Positions 6,860-12,480 of a DNA stretch of 64,000 nucleotides are shown in pieces. Location of the stretch: positions 1 through 64,000 of the forward strand of contig NZ_JAGDYL010000013.1 of the NCBI RefSeq assembly GCF_017565705.1. The letters run 5' to 3'. A program made the translations under genes and the position numbers. The number at the start of each line of letters is the position of its first letter. Within the stretch, counting starts at the first letter, position 1. The stretch is from Leucobacter ruminantium (GTDB taxonomy: Bacteria > Actinomycetota > Actinomycetes > Actinomycetales > Microbacteriaceae). Below the pieces are notes generated by a model. That model ran no database searches. It worked only from the letters and a program-made list of their open reading frames with translations, and was not told the DNA's origin.

Positions 6860-7336
6860 CTATCCGGCCAACTCGTCGAGCAGCGCGGCGCAGCTGCGCT
6901 CGACCTGCGCGAGCACCTCGTCGAAGGCCCGCTGCTCGGAGTAGTAGGGGTCGAACACGTCGGGGTCTGCGGGCCGGGAGGGATCGAAGGCCGTGAGCAG
7001 CACGACCCGCTCGGATCTCGCACCGAGCCGCAGCAGCTCGCGCTCGTGCTCGCGCGCGAGCGCGATGAGCAGGTCGTTGCCGGCGATGTCGGCGGGGGAG
7101 AGGCGAGCGGCGCGGTGCGCGCGGCCGTCGTAGCCCCCGGCCTCCAGCGCGACGAGGGCGCGCGGATCGGCGGGGTCGCCGATGTGGTAGCCGTTCGTGC
7201 CGCGCGAGGTCACCGCGAAGCGCTCGCCGATCCCTCGTCGTTCGGCCAGTTCGCGGAAGATGACCTCGCCCATCGGGGACCGGCAGATGTTGCCGGAGCA
7301 GACGAAGGTGATGCGGAGGATCTGCGCTGCGCTCAT
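6860..7336 (-). CDS. Low-molecular-weight protein tyrosine phosphatase
   Basis: Cysteine-dependent phosphatase acting on phosphotyrosine, or possibly phosphoarginine as in other Gram-positive members. The P-loop CX5RS appears as CSGNICRS at about residues 13-20, and the general-acid DP motif as DVFDPYY near residue 125. At 158 residues it has the normal family size. A CAGACT hexamer ends 6 nt before the ATG and the region has only a weak Shine-Dalgarno, so a leaderless start with a non-canonical -10 box is possible. Neighbouring genes do not suggest a partner substrate. Confidence 0.9.
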   Translation of the reverse strand: MSAAQILRITFVCSGNICRSPMGEVIFRELAERRGIGERFAVTSRGTNGYHIGDPADPRALVALEAGGYDGRAHRAARLSPADIAGNDLLIALAREHERELLRLGARSERVVLLTAFDPSRPADPDVFDPYYSEQRAFDEVLAQVERSCAALLDELAG

Positions 7337-7369
7337 GATCCCAGTCTGCCCGAGCGGCGGGCGACCGCG

Positions 7370-7780
7370 TCAGTCGTCGCGCTTCTTGCGGTTCGTGCCG
7401 AGCAGGCCGTTCAGGATGCCCGAGAGGATCGACATGACGAGCGCTGCGAGCACACCCCACCAGAAGCCCTCGATGCGCAGGCCGAAGCCCGCGAGGTCGG
7501 AGAGCCACGCGACGACCGCGAAGAGGAAGCCGTTCACGATGAGCCCGAAGAGGCCGAGCGTGATGATGTAGAGCGGGATCGAGACGAAGCGCACCAGCTT
7601 GCCGAGCGTCGCGTTGACGAGACCGAAGACGAGCGCCACGAGCAGCAGGGTGATGAGCGGCGAGTAGTCGTCGGAGCCGATCGGCACGATCCACACGCCG
7701 TGCTCGCCGCTGCCGCCGACGATGAGCGTGGTGAGCCACAGCGCGAAGGCGCTGACGAGCACGCGTATCACGGTTCTCAT
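7370..7780 (-). CDS. Four-helix membrane protein of the YvlD / 'phage holin family' type
   Basis: A 136-residue protein with four hydrophobic helices (about residues 4-22, 42-62, 68-92 and 100-122) and a basic tail NRKKRDD. This matches the so-called mycobacterial 4-TMS phage holin family (YvlD-like), which in chromosomes is a housekeeping membrane protein and is not evidence for a prophage. Its function is unknown. A CAGACT hexamer 6 nt upstream of the ATG mirrors the arrangement seen at the next gene. It ends 33 bp before the phosphatase gene starts and could be co-transcribed with it. Confidence 0.8.
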   Translation of the reverse strand: MRTVIRVLVSAFALWLTTLIVGGSGEHGVWIVPIGSDDYSPLITLLLVALVFGLVNATLGKLVRFVSIPLYIITLGLFGLIVNGFLFAVVAWLSDLAGFGLRIEGFWWGVLAALVMSILSGILNGLLGTNRKKRDD

Positions 7781-7890
7781 GCCGCCAGTCTGCCAGCTCA
7801 GCCTGGGCGCCGCCTCGGGGAGTCGCGCGAGCCGGGGGGCGATGGGGCCGGAGAGTGAGGGAGCGCGACCCTGCCGTCGGAGGCCGAAGG

Positions 7891-7896
7891 TAGCAT
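7891..7896 (+). promoter_or_regulatory. -10 box TAGCAT of a predicted leaderless promoter
   Basis: TAGCAT ends 6 nt before the ATG of the AAA ATPase gene at 7903. With normal -10 to start-site spacing, transcription would begin at or next to the A of the ATG, giving a leaderless mRNA. Confidence 0.6.
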
Positions 7897-7902
7897 TGCA
7901 CC

Positions 7903-9183
7903 ATGTCCGACGTACTGCTCAACAGCCTGGCCGCCGCGGTGGCCGCGTCTCCGGAGGATCCGGAGCTCCGCGCACTCTACGCCGAGCGCCTGGCCGATGC
8001 CGGGCAGCGCGATGTCGCGATCGGGCAGGCGATGGTGGTGCTGTCGAAGAGCCAGGGGCACGCCGGTGCGCAGGCGCTCATCGAGCGGCTGACGGGCGAG
8101 GGATCGACTGGAGCACCCGCCGAGCAGAACGAGCCCGAGTCGCGGTCCTCGATCGGCGAGCCCGATCAGACCGAGGGCGTCGACTGGGGGCGCCTCGAGC
8201 ACGAGATCGGCAATGAGATGCCGCCTCCGTTCGTCGTGCACGAGACGATCGAGACCCCTGAGGGAGTGGTCGCCGCGGTCTCCGACGCGGAAGACTCGTC
8301 GAGCATCGCCGAGGTGAGCCGCGAGACCCTCCGCCTCTCGGACGTCGGCGGCCTTATCGAGGTGAAGCGACGCATACACGAGACCTTCCTCGATCCCATC
8401 GCGCACCCCGAGATCGCGAAGGCCTTCAAGAAGAGCCTCGGCGGCGGCCTCCTGCTCTACGGGCCTCCCGGCTGCGGCAAGACCTATCTCGCGCGCGCCA
8501 TCGCCGGCGAGCTCGGTGCGAGCTTCATCTCGGTGACGCTCGCCGACGTGCTCAGCAAGTGGCTCGGCGAGAGCGAGGGCAACATCCACAAGACCTTCGC
8601 CGAGGCGCGGCAGAAGGCTCCGGCCGTGCTCTTCCTCGACGAGGTCGACGCGGTCGGCGGCAAGCGCAGCTCGCAGAACTCGCAGAGCCTGCGCAACATC
8701 GTGAACCAGCTGCTCATGGAGATGGACGGGGTGGGCAGCGACAACGACGGCCTCTTCGTGCTCGCGGCGACCAACATGCCCTGGGACGTGGACGCGGCGC
8801 TGCTGCGCCCGGGCCGGTTCGATCGCATGGTGCTCGTATCGCCGCCCGACGAGCCCGCACGCGAGGCGATCCTGCGCGGTCACCTCGACCAGCGCCCAGT
8901 ACAGGGCATCGACCTCGAGGTGCTCGTGCGCAAGACCGAGGGCTTCTCGGGCGCAGACCTCAAGCACCTCTGCGACACGGCGGCCGAGAAGGCGCTCGCC
9001 GCATCGATCAAGTCGGGCGCCGTGCAGCCGGTCTCCATGAGTGACATGAACCGCGCCCTGAAAGAGGTGAAGCCCTCGATCGGGCCGTGGCTCGACAGCG
9101 CGCGCAACGTCGCGAACTACGCGAACGGCGACGGCCGTTACGACGACCTCGTGCGACTGCTGAAGCGCTACAAGCGCCTGTGA
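7903..9183 (+). CDS. AAA ATPase with N-terminal TPR-like helices and Vps4-like pore loop
   Basis: Classical AAA ATPase of 426 residues. Residues 1-65 form TPR-like helices, 66-145 an acidic linker, and about 145-390 one AAA module: Walker A GPPGCGKT (187-194), pore loop SKWLGESE right after strand 2, Walker B VLFLDEVDA (about 242-250), sensor LAATN (about 287) and arginine fingers RPGRFDR (about 302-308). The KWLG pore loop and GES sequence are closest to the eukaryotic Vps4/katanin branch; there is no zinc-protease domain, so this is not FtsH. The C-terminal end NYANGDGRYDDLVRLLKRYK is a family-specific cap. It starts a three-gene unit with two TPR membrane proteins. Predicted role, by inference: pulling on or disassembling a membrane-associated protein complex. 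Confidence 0.85.
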   Translation: MSDVLLNSLAAAVAASPEDPELRALYAERLADAGQRDVAIGQAMVVLSKSQGHAGAQALIERLTGEGSTGAPAEQNEPESRSSIGEPDQTEGVDWGRLEHEIGNEMPPPFVVHETIETPEGVVAAVSDAEDSSSIAEVSRETLRLSDVGGLIEVKRRIHETFLDPIAHPEIAKAFKKSLGGGLLLYGPPGCGKTYLARAIAGELGASFISVTLADVLSKWLGESEGNIHKTFAEARQKAPAVLFLDEVDAVGGKRSSQNSQSLRNIVNQLLMEMDGVGSDNDGLFVLAATNMPWDVDAALLRPGRFDRMVLVSPPDEPAREAILRGHLDQRPVQGIDLEVLVRKTEGFSGADLKHLCDTAAEKALAASIKSGAVQPVSMSDMNRALKEVKPSIGPWLDSARNVANYANGDGRYDDLVRLLKRYKRL

Positions 9184-9193
9184 GCGCGTCGCG

Positions 9194-10888
9194 ATGAACG
9201 ATCGGTCGCAAGCGGCGTCGGCGGGCGGGGGGAGCGCAGCCGAGCAGACGCCGGCCCGCTGCTTCGAGCGCGCCGAGGCGCTGAACGGTTTCGGCCGCCG
9301 CGAGGAGGCGATCGCCGAGCTGCGGCGCGGGCTCGGGGTGTTCCCCGATGACCCCGAGCTGCTCGGATACCTCGGCTGGCTGCTGTTCTTCGCGGGGGAG
9401 CAGGACGAAGCGGAGGACCTCGCCCTGCGCACCCTCGCGGTACGCCCCGCGGACGCCCGCGCACTCAACACGCTGTGCGAGGTCACGGTCGCGCAGGCGC
9501 GCTTCGCCGAGGGCGCGGGCTACGCCCGCGAGCTGCTGCGGCACTTCCCCGAGTGGCCCGTCTCCCACCTCCATCTCGCCTACGCTCTCGCGAGCGACGC
9601 GAGCAGGCCGTTCAAGGCGCGCCGGCGGCGTCGTGCCGAGGCGCGGGCGAGCATCGACCGCGCTCTCGAGCTCGCCCCGGAGCATGTCGAGACGCTGCGC
9701 CGCTCGACCGTCCTGCTGAGACGGCTCGGCGATGCCGAGGCCGCGTCCCGCACCCTCGATCGCGGCCTCGAACTCGCTCCCGACGACGAGAGCCTGCTGC
9801 TGCTCGCCGCGCAGCGCGAGAGCGAGAAGACCTCCGGGCCGCAGCACCTGCAGGGGCTCGGCCTGTCGGCCGGTCACCAGGCCGCCGCCCTGCGCATCCT
9901 GTCGGGAGTGCTCGCCGACAATCCCCGGCACCGCGGCGTCGCGCGCGCTGTCAGCGACGACGTGTGGGGCCGCAGCCGGCTCCTCGCCGCGATCGGGCTC
10001 TGGGTCTGCGTTTTCCTGATGCTCTTCGCGTACCTGGTGTTCGGCGAGCCGATGAGCACGAGCCGCCGAACGCAGGTGCGCGCGGGCGAGGCGCTGCTGA
10101 TCCTGCCCGCCGCCTGGTTCGTGCTGTTCTTCACGATCAGGGCAAAGGGTCTGCCCAAGCGGTTCATGCGGCGCCTCTACGCGCCCGTGTGGTGGGTGTG
10201 GATCGGATTCGTCGTGGCGGCGATCGGCGGGCTCGGAGCGCTGCTGTCGGCATTCTCCCTGGCGCTGCGCTCCGGCGAGACGCAGCTGCAGATGCAGGGC
10301 AGCTACGTCGGCGGGATCACGATGATGATCGGCTTCTGCGCCTGGATGCTGCTCATCGCCGAGCTGCTGTTCGTGTTCGCGCGGTTCCGATCCGAGCAGC
10401 GCAGTGGACTCTTCCCGGGTGACGACGAGGGACGGGCTGCGGCGCTCGCCGAGCTGAGGGAGCACCGCTGGTCTCTGGTTCGCGTCGGCATAGCCGCGCT
10501 GCTCGCCTGCGTTCCCCTCGTGGCGGCGCCGGTCGCGATGCGGCCGGAGGCGGCCGGAGGTTTCGCCGCAGTCGCCGCTGCACTCGCGATCCCTCCCTTG
10601 ATCGCTCTGCTGCTGCGGGTCGGCCGGGTCCTGAGCCATCGCCGCGGAGGCGACGGCGGTGCCGGCGCGATGCTGTGGGCCGCGCTCATGCTCGCCGCGC
10701 TCGGAGTCGCCGGGGTGTGGCTGCTCGCCGACCGTCACGCCGCCGAGCACGATCCGCCCCCGACGCCATGGGAGATCGAGATGCGCGAGCATCAGAAGAG
10801 GATGCGCGACTCTATCGGCGACCTCGACATCCCGGATCCGGACGACCTCGACGTGCCGGCCGCGGACCCGCAGGGGTCGGCCCCGTGA
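9194..10888 (+). CDS. TPR-containing multi-pass membrane protein (copy 1)
   Basis: I recognise no named family. The 564-residue protein has a soluble N-terminal half built of TPR-like repeats (for example AEALNGFGRREEAIAELRRG, and ERALELAPEH-type helices; residues about 20-250), then about seven transmembrane helices between residues 262 and 520, and an acidic C-terminal tail ending RMRDSIGDLDIPDPDDLDVP. It begins 10 bp after the AAA ATPase stop codon and its own stop overlaps the start of the next gene, so the three are almost certainly one operon. The N-terminal TPR block resembles that of the following protein (AEALxxFGRxxEAIxEL), which suggests gene duplication. A role as membrane receptor or substrate for the ATPase is an inference. 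Confidence 0.75.
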   Translation: MNDRSQAASAGGGSAAEQTPARCFERAEALNGFGRREEAIAELRRGLGVFPDDPELLGYLGWLLFFAGEQDEAEDLALRTLAVRPADARALNTLCEVTVAQARFAEGAGYARELLRHFPEWPVSHLHLAYALASDASRPFKARRRRRAEARASIDRALELAPEHVETLRRSTVLLRRLGDAEAASRTLDRGLELAPDDESLLLLAAQRESEKTSGPQHLQGLGLSAGHQAAALRILSGVLADNPRHRGVARAVSDDVWGRSRLLAAIGLWVCVFLMLFAYLVFGEPMSTSRRTQVRAGEALLILPAAWFVLFFTIRAKGLPKRFMRRLYAPVWWVWIGFVVAAIGGLGALLSAFSLALRSGETQLQMQGSYVGGITMMIGFCAWMLLIAELLFVFARFRSEQRSGLFPGDDEGRAAALAELREHRWSLVRVGIAALLACVPLVAAPVAMRPEAAGGFAAVAAALAIPPLIALLLRVGRVLSHRRGGDGGAGAMLWAALMLAALGVAGVWLLADRHAAEHDPPPTPWEIEMREHQKRMRDSIGDLDIPDPDDLDVPAADPQGSAP

Positions 10889-12480
10889 CCCGGCCGGAGA
10901 TCGAGGAGAGCCCCACCGGCCGGCCGGGCCCGGGCGACTTCCTGCAACGCGCCGAGGCTCTCGCCGACTTCGGCAGGCCGGACGAGGCGATCGAAGAGCT
11001 GCAGCGCGGCCTCGCCGAGTATCCGGAGCACGCGGCGCTGTGGGCGCACCTCGCCTGGGTGCGCTGGGTGAGCGATGACAGGAAGCTGGCCCGCGCAGCA
11101 GCCGAGGCGGCGCTCTCCTACGACCCTGATCAGCTCGGCGCCCTGCACACCATGGTGCTGCTGGAGGCGCGTGCGCGTGACGCGCCGGGGGCGCATCTCG
11201 CCGCCGACCGCATGCTGCAGCTGGCACCGGACCATCCGGCTTCGCACCTGGACAAGGCGCGGGCGCTCGCGGCCGAGCCCGATGGCTCCCGGCGTCACAG
11301 CCGGCTGATCCGCGATGCCGCCTACTGGGCGATGAGTCTGGATATCGATTCGGCCTCGACGGTGGCGCAGGCCGCCGGGCTGCTGCACGGCGTGGTGGGC
11401 AAGGCCGAGTTCTCCCAGCTCATCTCGCGCGGTCTGGCACTCGACCCCCAGAACGAGGCGCTGCTGTTCTTCGCGTCCGACGCGCATACGAAGCACGACG
11501 GGCAAGTCGTCGACGTGCTCAGTTCGATGCTGGTGCAGAACCCGCAGCAGCGCGACGCGGCGATACAGCTCAATCACATCGTCTGGGAGCGCACGCGTTG
11601 GGTCCCGGCACTCGCGGTGTGGGGCATGCTGGCGATAGCGTTGCCGCAGGCAGCCGTCGCGGTGCTCGTGATGGCGATGGTGAATCTCTGGACTCTGGCG
11701 CACCGTGTGCGCAGGTCCGCGCCGAGAGGTTTTCTGCGGCGCACCTGGGGCGCCTCGGCTTGGAGCCGAACCGGTGTGATCCTCGGTCTTCTGGGAGCGA
11801 GTTGGCCACTGCTTGCGCTGCCGCTCGTGTTCTGGCTGAGGATGCCCGGGCTGCTGGCTCTGGTACCACTGCTGCTGCTCGCGAGCGAGTGCCTCATCGT
11901 CTACGCGGGCGATCGCGAGTTGCGGCGCCTGCTCGCACCGATCGGGCCGCGGGCCGCCGATTACACGCAGGATCTGCACCGCGCGGCGTTGAAGGGGTGG
12001 GTGCGCATCATCGTCGGCGGCATCGCGCTCGTCTGCGGGCTGGTCGGCCTCGTCACGGGCGCGGGCCGGTGGATGCCGCTGATAGTGCTGGCGGGCCTCG
12101 CCTTTGTCATTCCGGCCCTGCTGCGACTCCTGCTGACCCGCGACATGCGGCGGCAGACGGATGAGGGATCCGTGCTCGAACAGCAGCGCGATGTGCGGGC
12201 ACCGCTGGCCGTGATCGCGGTCTGCGCGGTCGGCCTGGCCGCACTGATGATGGTGCAGCCGCCCGAGATCAGCATCGATCAGGGCCCGCGGCGCGAGCAA
12301 CCGTCTCCCGAGGACGTGCAGCGCACACGGGAGCAGCTGCACGACTACCTCCAGAACGAAGAGCAGCGCAGAGAAGACCTCGAACGTTCGATGAGCGAGT
12401 GGAGCGACTCACTGCGAGATGCGCAGCAGAGGGCCGACGATGTCCCGGCGGTGACGGAGGGAAGCGGGGAGGCGGGCTAG
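10885..12480 (+). CDS. TPR-containing multi-pass membrane protein (copy 2)
   Basis: Paralogue of the preceding protein. I choose the GTG at 10885, which overlaps the previous stop codon as GTGA, giving 531 residues and translational coupling; an in-frame upstream extension exists but is only the shadow of the previous gene. Residues about 10-215 are TPR-like (AEALADFGRPDEAIEELQRG), followed by six or seven transmembrane helices between about 238 and 475 and a hydrophilic, probably coiled-coil tail (EQLHDYLQNEEQRREDLERS). Both copies therefore place a TPR platform and a charged tail on the same side of the membrane, likely the cytoplasm with the AAA ATPase. Function unknown. Confidence 0.75.
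   Translation: MTRPEIEESPTGRPGPGDFLQRAEALADFGRPDEAIEELQRGLAEYPEHAALWAHLAWVRWVSDDRKLARAAAEAALSYDPDQLGALHTMVLLEARARDAPGAHLAADRMLQLAPDHPASHLDKARALAAEPDGSRRHSRLIRDAAYWAMSLDIDSASTVAQAAGLLHGVVGKAEFSQLISRGLALDPQNEALLFFASDAHTKHDGQVVDVLSSMLVQNPQQRDAAIQLNHIVWERTRWVPALAVWGMLAIALPQAAVAVLVMAMVNLWTLAHRVRRSAPRGFLRRTWGASAWSRTGVILGLLGASWPLLALPLVFWLRMPGLLALVPLLLLASECLIVYAGDRELRRLLAPIGPRAADYTQDLHRAALKGWVRIIVGGIALVCGLVGLVTGAGRWMPLIVLAGLAFVIPALLRLLLTRDMRRQTDEGSVLEQQRDVRAPLAVIAVCAVGLAALMMVQPPEISIDQGPRREQPSPEDVQRTREQLHDYLQNEEQRREDLERSMSEWSDSLRDAQQRADDVPAVTEGSGEAG

Follow-up and report, generated by a model that had tools for sequence, protein, structure and literature searches.

What does an AAA ATPase that lacks a protease domain do when it is encoded together with two multipass membrane proteins? 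The question is raised by three adjacent genes at positions 7903 to 12480 of the window, the 64,000-nucleotide stretch of Leucobacter ruminantium DNA analyzed here (contig NZ_JAGDYL010000013.1). The first encodes a predicted Vps4/p97-type ATPase (the AAA protein), and the other two encode paralogous proteins, T1 and T2, which combine TPR and membrane domains. We propose that they constitute a membrane-anchored, non-proteolytic AAA remodelling module, a reading with a probability of about 0.55.

The three genes are co-directional, with a 10-bp gap between the AAA gene and T1 and a 4-bp overlap (GTGA) of the T1 stop with the T2 start. These open reading frame coordinates agree with the three-gene unit described in the original prediction, an earlier reading of the same sequence. 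The coding score from local codon usage is positive for all three, with the genes themselves included in the training set of the codon-usage caller.

7903..9183, + strand: AAA gene, 426 amino acids (aa) (open reading frame, Pfam, invariant motifs, model)
9194..10888, + strand: T1 gene, TPR membrane protein, 564 aa (Pfam, AlphaFold model)
10885..12480, + strand: T2 gene, T1 paralogue, 531 aa from the GTG of GTGA (open reading frame, Pfam, partner tree)

The AAA protein has a single AAA domain (Pfam AAA, 1.6e-42; AAA_lid_3, 2.2e-11). In its AlphaFold model, with a mean predicted local distance difference test score (pLDDT) of 86.9, four N-terminal helices are followed by a linker, the AAA domain and a helical C-terminal end.

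7906..8106, + strand: N-terminal TPR-like region, four helices, residues 2-68 (model; 10-residue pLDDT means 90-98 over residues 1-60)
8107..8307, + strand: linker, mostly disordered, residues 69-135 (model; 10-residue pLDDT means 38-70 over residues 71-130)
8179..8199, + strand: VDWGRLE motif in the linker (pattern [FIVLMN][DN]W in 37 of 57 aligned proteins)
8311..9075, + strand: AAA domain, residues 137-391 (Pfam, alignment, model, fold search)
8461..8484, + strand: P-loop GPPGCGKT (GPPGxGKT invariant in the alignment of 57)
9076..9180, + strand: family C-terminal region, PSIGPWLDSARNVANYANGDGRYDDL... (W396 and G411 invariant in 57/57 aligned)

Besides the P-loop, D246-E247, N291, R302, R305 and G222 are invariant across the 57 aligned AAA proteins, the last being the G of KWLG, which we take to be the pore loop. 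No protease domain was found in the AAA protein, as FtsH and Lon models match its AAA part only, and no membrane helix is predicted. The complete ATPase core without a protease domain, as originally described, is thus confirmed. Three parts had been overlooked in that first reading: the N-terminal TPR-like helices, the DW motif of the linker, and the C-terminal end shared across phyla. The TPR_20 match at the N-terminus is weak (Pfam, 0.0057), and longer TPR regions are apparent by eye in several relatives from other phyla. Similar C-terminal ends occur in members from Bacteroidota, Planctomycetota and Verrucomicrobiota.

To which AAA family does the protein belong? In a tree of AAA domains, 37 family rows form one clade with a Shimodaira–Hasegawa-like approximate likelihood ratio test (SH-aLRT) support of 99, and FtsH (11 rows, SH-aLRT 89) and ARC (8 rows, SH-aLRT 100) form separate clades, as the original prediction had presumed; the tree was built by a quick method with SH-aLRT support only, 25 of its 60 inner branches are open, and long branches occur among the Cdc48-like rows. 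As for its labels, the 6 FtsH rows that were checked pass the FtsH cut-off with the other 5 unchecked, all 8 ARC rows are over the pup_AAA cut-off, and ‘Cpa’ on four tree loci is our own label, the CDC48 model having matched them below its cut-off. FtsH membership was rejected on the separate clade, a score of 198.5 of 600 bits and the missing protease domain, and ARC/Mpa membership on the separate clade and 122 of 504.75 bits. No pup_AAA match was found in the window genome at 1e-100.

Vps4 and other archaeal and eukaryotic AAA proteins were left out of the tree, and Vps4 was compared by profile, a one-fragment PDB search and fold. In the fold search with the AAA protein, the closest structures were Vps4 (Z 27.5, Metallosphaera, and 27.2), p97 (27.1), katanin (26.3) and spastin (25.9). 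The modelled fold is of the Vps4/katanin/p97 kind, with Vps4 and p97 tied. The best PDB sequences among 60 of 311 listed are Cdc48/p97 chains (D2 201.7 bits, D1 165.9).

These comparisons bear on the possibility that a Vps4-type ATPase disassembles a polymer of the endosomal sorting complex required for transport (ESCRT)-III or PspA type at the membrane. Such bacterial genes are set in an ESCRT context in a section of PMC11237479, and two Vps4 chains, level with p97, top the fold list. However, the window genome, at an assembly completeness of 99.38%, has no match at E <= 0.001 to Vps4_C (PF09336; matched in 2/14 control genomes, both archaeal), to PspA_IM30 (9/14 controls match) or to Snf7, the last being a weak probe (1/14 controls matched, below the cut-off). 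The 25 of 31 Pfam families listed at E <= 0.1 do not include MIT, a domain that is itself TPR-like, the N-terminus of the AAA protein being modelled as four TPR-like helices, and the best listed sequence match is p97 D2. The missing PspA and Snf7 matches weaken the ESCRT-like reading, which would need a filament-forming partner outside these families, and we consider it very improbable. Thus, the earlier label ‘Vps4-like’ holds for the fold, tied with p97, and not for Vps4_C; the AAA protein is a predicted Vps4/p97-type ATPase, the fold alone being clearly present among the Vps4 features tested.

The two partner proteins supply the membrane part. Both match TPR_14 (T1, 1.8e-13; T2, 9.8e-08; Pfam), and their 28% identity over 335 aa (E 2e-25) makes them paralogues. 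The T1 model has a mean pLDDT of 86.7 and a predicted template modelling score (pTM) of 0.78.

9251..9919, + strand: T1 TPR domain, residues 20-242, helix pairs taken as six repeats (model)
9932..10747, + strand: T1 membrane domain, seven long helices, residues 247-518 (model)
10748..10885, + strand: T1 C-terminal tail with DIPDPDDLDVP, predicted outside the membrane (model, charge bias)

Hydropathy and the AlphaFold model agree on the seven T1 membrane helices. Hydropathy counts 6 in T2; since its first hydrophobic segment, at about residues 240-270, has the length to accommodate a hairpin, 7 are likely. The membrane helices and the paralogy of the original prediction therefore stand, and its count of about seven holds for T1 and is likely for T2.

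Topology was read from lysine/arginine density. It is 0.196 in the loops that would be inside if the TPRs are inside vs 0.073 in the other loops, with the same direction in 14/14 rows with seven transmembrane helices (7-TM); the count covers these 14 of 27 aligned partners, and the other 13 (5, 6 or 8 TM), T2 among them, were left out. From this bias the TPR domains are predicted to be cytosolic and the acidic T1 tail to lie outside the membrane. The tail had been suggested as a docking peptide, and its predicted location argues against docking on the ATPase. We set that idea aside on the charge bias and on the occurrence of at least 2 cysteines in 7/27 partner tails. An IPxF-x-VP-like pattern recurs in 16/27 partner tails, those of T1 and T2 not being caught by it.

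A Foldseek search with whole T1 returned, among the 50 rows shown, mainly TPR and other helical-repeat chains, so the membrane domain was given no fold name. No transporter family was matched by T1 or T2 above a curated cut-off, with sub-threshold hits only, such as the permease subunit TIGR03943 (23 of 88.8 bits, T2), and no effector domain was matched in the family library scans. T1 and T2 belong to two sister groups of the partner tree, both inside a supported seven-row set (97). A tandem partner pair at locus L096 forms its own clade (99), and locus L102 has two copies side by side. Tandem partner duplication was observed in more than one case.

Is the pairing of ATPase and membrane protein kept elsewhere? 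A named-genome scan, in which the best 80 of 431 relatives were kept, returned mainly Actinomycetota, together with records titled Chloroflexi, Bacteroidetes/Chitinophagaceae, Verrucomicrobia (with Puniceicoccales), Planctomycetes, Thiobaca (Pseudomonadota) and Melainabacteria. Two titles, L189 (Melainabacteria) and L202 (Chloroflexi), are doubtful and may be binning errors, because both are high-GC and grouped with actinobacterial rows. At 63 of the 80 named loci, the AAA gene is followed within 60 bp by a gene on the same strand that is 250 aa or longer; the two genes overlap by 4 or 1 bp in 43 of these loci, and at 59 the downstream gene has at least 2 predicted helices. The remaining 17 have a larger gap or short call (8), a gene on the opposite strand (5), a contig end (3) or no AAA call (1). 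All 65 scanned partners (the 63, T1 and T2) match a TPR family.

Neighbours were then counted over 142 loci in total, with an AAA gene called in 137, one locus being counted twice (L105 and L165 are one record). Genes were called with a home-made codon-usage caller, whose starts are approximate and which split or truncated some AAA genes. The same-strand gene directly downstream (+1) belongs to the TPR partner cluster at 94/137 loci (91 with at least 2 predicted helices, 3 with one) and to a soluble TPR cluster at 14/137. With a TPR partner of either cluster at +1 in 108/137 loci, and these 108 spanning six phyla by record title, the gene order is conserved beyond one species, a point on which the original prediction had depended. 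Among the 16 loci with non-actinobacterial titles, 13 are within the 94; the exceptions are L212, whose +1 gene is a TPR 7-TM protein, L218 and L226. No further neighbour family occurs in more than 20 of the 137 loci. Partner number and size vary between loci. At L139, L134 and L198, partner-size multipass genes flank the AAA gene on both sides instead of two lying downstream; the TPR scan in these covered one flank of L139 and the downstream gene of L198.

On this computed basis, namely the AAA motifs, the single AAA domain, the predicted fold and topology, and the pairing kept across phyla, we infer the hexamer, docking, threading and client of the remodelling module. The AAA protein would probably assemble into a cytosolic hexameric ring powered by ATP. 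With their TPR domains facing the cytosol, T1 and T2 would be embedded in the cell membrane and tether the ring to it, docking probably being mediated by TPR contacts together with the TPR-like N-terminus and the linker of the AAA protein. The pore loops would act on a membrane-associated client by pulling on it, unfolding it or taking it apart, but would not degrade it, and this client may be assemblies of T1 and T2 themselves or another membrane protein. Of the remodelling or secretion-assisting role suggested originally, remodelling is retained as a proposal, and nothing here supports secretion specifically. A bolder version, which we regard as speculative and unlikely, is a trans-envelope remodelling machine in which membrane TPR proteins have taken the place of ESCRT-III as the substrate of a Vps4-like ATPase. 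Outside tails would sense or grip something beyond the membrane while the cytosolic ring applies force, so that ATP hydrolysed in the cytosol would drive changes in a membrane assembly with neither a protease nor an ESCRT-III polymer.

Several observations weigh against the remodelling module. The 13 of 27 aligned partners, T2 included, that are not resolved as 7-TM blur the topology, naive parity being reversed in several, probably where a hairpin was missed and taken as one helix. Neither TPR cluster is found at +1 in 29/137 loci, some of which are contig ends, split gene calls or unclustered TPR membrane genes (L102, L212), and no multipass gene adjoins the AAA genes of L137, L138 and L140 within the short flanks that were read. 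The 14 loci with a soluble partner (L058, L059, L061, L062, L063, L064, L122, L123, L124, L126, L127, L129, L130 and L131) imply that membrane anchoring is not universal. Finally, genomes G018 and G021 have a lone T2-like TPR membrane gene at the syntenic place of the window, with no AAA or T1 gene there:

L029, about 7704-9116: lone T2-like TPR membrane gene, syntenic place of the window
L032, about 7222-8631: lone T2-like TPR membrane gene, syntenic place of the window

Elsewhere in its genome, G021 carries an AAA gene of the kind with a soluble partner, and G018 has no AAA match anywhere at E <= 1e-75, which indicates that T2-like proteins can persist alone.

The lone genes raise the alternative that T1 and T2 are the working part, as a transporter, channel or envelope sensor, and that the AAA protein merely regulates or assembles them. 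Variable partner number and size, as well as tails predicted outside with a recurring motif, would fit. Yet no transporter family reaches its curated cut-off, and the soluble partner of the 14 loci offers no membrane part to regulate, leaving this alternative doubtful.

The soluble partners are mostly 420-450 aa without a predicted membrane helix, keep a C-terminal region LxWHDGQ... in those read, and match TPR families only in the two that were scanned (Pfam). The DW motif is restricted to actinobacterial rows among the 57 aligned AAA proteins, and neither the non-actinobacterial rows nor the soluble-partner rows L059, L061 and L126 have it. It is also missing from the membrane-partner actinobacterial rows L125, L195, L198, L203 and L206, so that its tie to partner type is not clean; it is possibly a binding motif. 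Upstream of the soluble-partner AAA unit at L058, L059 and L063 lie genes for a 12-13 TM protein of about 910-945 aa and a 6-TM protein of about 680-755 aa, presumably MMPL-like and YhgE/Pip-like. A larger system including them was considered and dropped, since they are not at that place in the other soluble-partner loci.

How widely does the AAA gene itself occur? It was matched in 17/54 genomes of the genus at E <= 1e-75 (own genome included), in 44/398 of the family (Microbacteriaceae) at 1e-85 and in 10/396 of the phylum at 1e-70; the family and phylum searches scored 4 candidates per genome, and their counts may be low. The patchy presence within the genus would be odd for a housekeeping role such as membrane-protein quality control, in which the ring would extract mislocalised or orphan membrane proteins with T1/T2 as receptor and anchor. 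Vps4, katanin, spastin and p97 among the closest folds, KWLG at the pore-loop position and a membrane partner all suit this role. On the other hand, the AAA protein has no predicted membrane helix, unlike Msp1, which has its own membrane anchor. Msp1/ATAD1-like quality control is a narrower form of the remodelling reading, and in that specific form we deem it possible, though improbable.

Patchiness also suits a defence or conflict module, that is, a mobile two-gene system sensing a phage or competitor at the membrane. AAA matches were found in 16 plasmid records, of which six were read (L142-L147; Streptomyces, Nonomuraea, Actinomyces oris), the Nonomuraea record being probably a chromosome at 11.85 Mb. 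At all six, a gene of 357-396 aa with 2-4 predicted helices is directly downstream of the AAA gene, and 2/4 annotated ones carry TPR naming. At the hisC locus, matched in 41/54 genus genomes with 30 loci read, a holin-like neighbour lies at most 1.5 kb away and TPR-membrane matches are missing in 19/30, the holin match ending within 450 bp of hisC in 15 and about 1.2 kb away in 4. A TPR-membrane match was found in 4/30, including the window, and neither match in 7/30. Thus the partner genes are missing upstream of hisC in 19 congeneric loci that retain the holin-like neighbour, and the partner alone recurs widely as the AAA neighbour. However, PADLOC reports AAA-core similarity (IetA, TRIP13, weaker ones) and nothing for T1/T2, which also match no effector domain. 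The accessible part of PMC7159879 describes MoxR-vWA and FtsH ternary conflict systems, not an AAA/TPR-membrane pair. We rate a defence role as rather unlikely.

Upstream of the AAA gene, one further feature concerns expression:

7891..7896, + strand: -10-like TAGCAT box, 6 nucleotides before the AAA ATG, kept in two congeneric orthologues

Its context GGTAGCAT(N)G(N)ACCATG is common to the window, G030 and G026. One leaderless promoter had been proposed for the unit; the position of the box fits a leaderless promoter and transcript from the predicted start without proving one. The T1 orthologue of G026 is split over two frames (L026, C1, about 3187038-3188656), either because the gene is broken or because the assembly is in error.

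Research on classical Vps4/p97-type AAA ATPases has centred on eukaryotes and archaea. In the present case, several bacterial phyla, and also plasmids, encode a conserved single-domain member next to a TPR membrane protein of its own. Should the two proteins associate physically, they would provide a simple model of AAA ring recruitment to membranes and of the action of such a ring there without a protease or ESCRT-III, with the lone T2-like genes and the soluble-partner form as natural comparisons. PMC10936438 states that homologues of ESCRT can be identified in archaea, whereas bacteria have no identifiable ones. The original prediction knew of no described system with this composition. A sentence in PMC11237479 qualifies that view, and no experimental study of an AAA/TPR-membrane pair was found in the literature searched, with most subscription papers outside its scope.

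How, then, does the module compare with known systems? CDC48 is the best NCBIfam model for the AAA protein (228.3 bits), whereas the protein has one AAA domain, does not reach the cut-off of 802.65, and belongs to a family that the tree separates from two-domain Cdc48-like rows. Cpa is described in PMC6017811 as Cdc48-like, its gene accompanying psd and pssA in two of three Cpa branches. Vps4/CdvC shares the single classical AAA domain and fold, but the CdvC model gives 179.5 of 650 bits. The anti-phage ATPase IetA has a similar classical AAA core (129.5 bits), but its cut-off of 510 is not reached, and the partner here matches TPR families and no protease family. Msp1/ATAD1, compared by description, is likewise a non-proteolytic AAA protein acting at a membrane, as PMC9273213 and PMC7018516 describe, whereas the anchor here is a separate protein.

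The closest counterpart is the pair (ACB74714.1) in section 18 of PMC11237479, where one sentence places bacterial Vps4-like ATPases beside a protein with ‘TPRs and a 6TM’. A Vps4-like AAA gene adjoining a TPR multipass membrane gene is also the layout of the window and of the 94/137 loci at +1, including loci of Verrucomicrobiota, Planctomycetota and Bacteroidota. The Verrucomicrobiota-titled L218 and L224 and the Puniceicoccales L223 were found by similarity to the AAA family of the window. The two pairs presumably belong to the same family. The actinobacterial form differs in its short N-terminal TPR-like region, its DW linker motif, a 7-TM partner with a tail predicted outside, and the tandem partner duplication. 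We therefore judge the module to be a variant of a barely described kind, known from one descriptive sentence.

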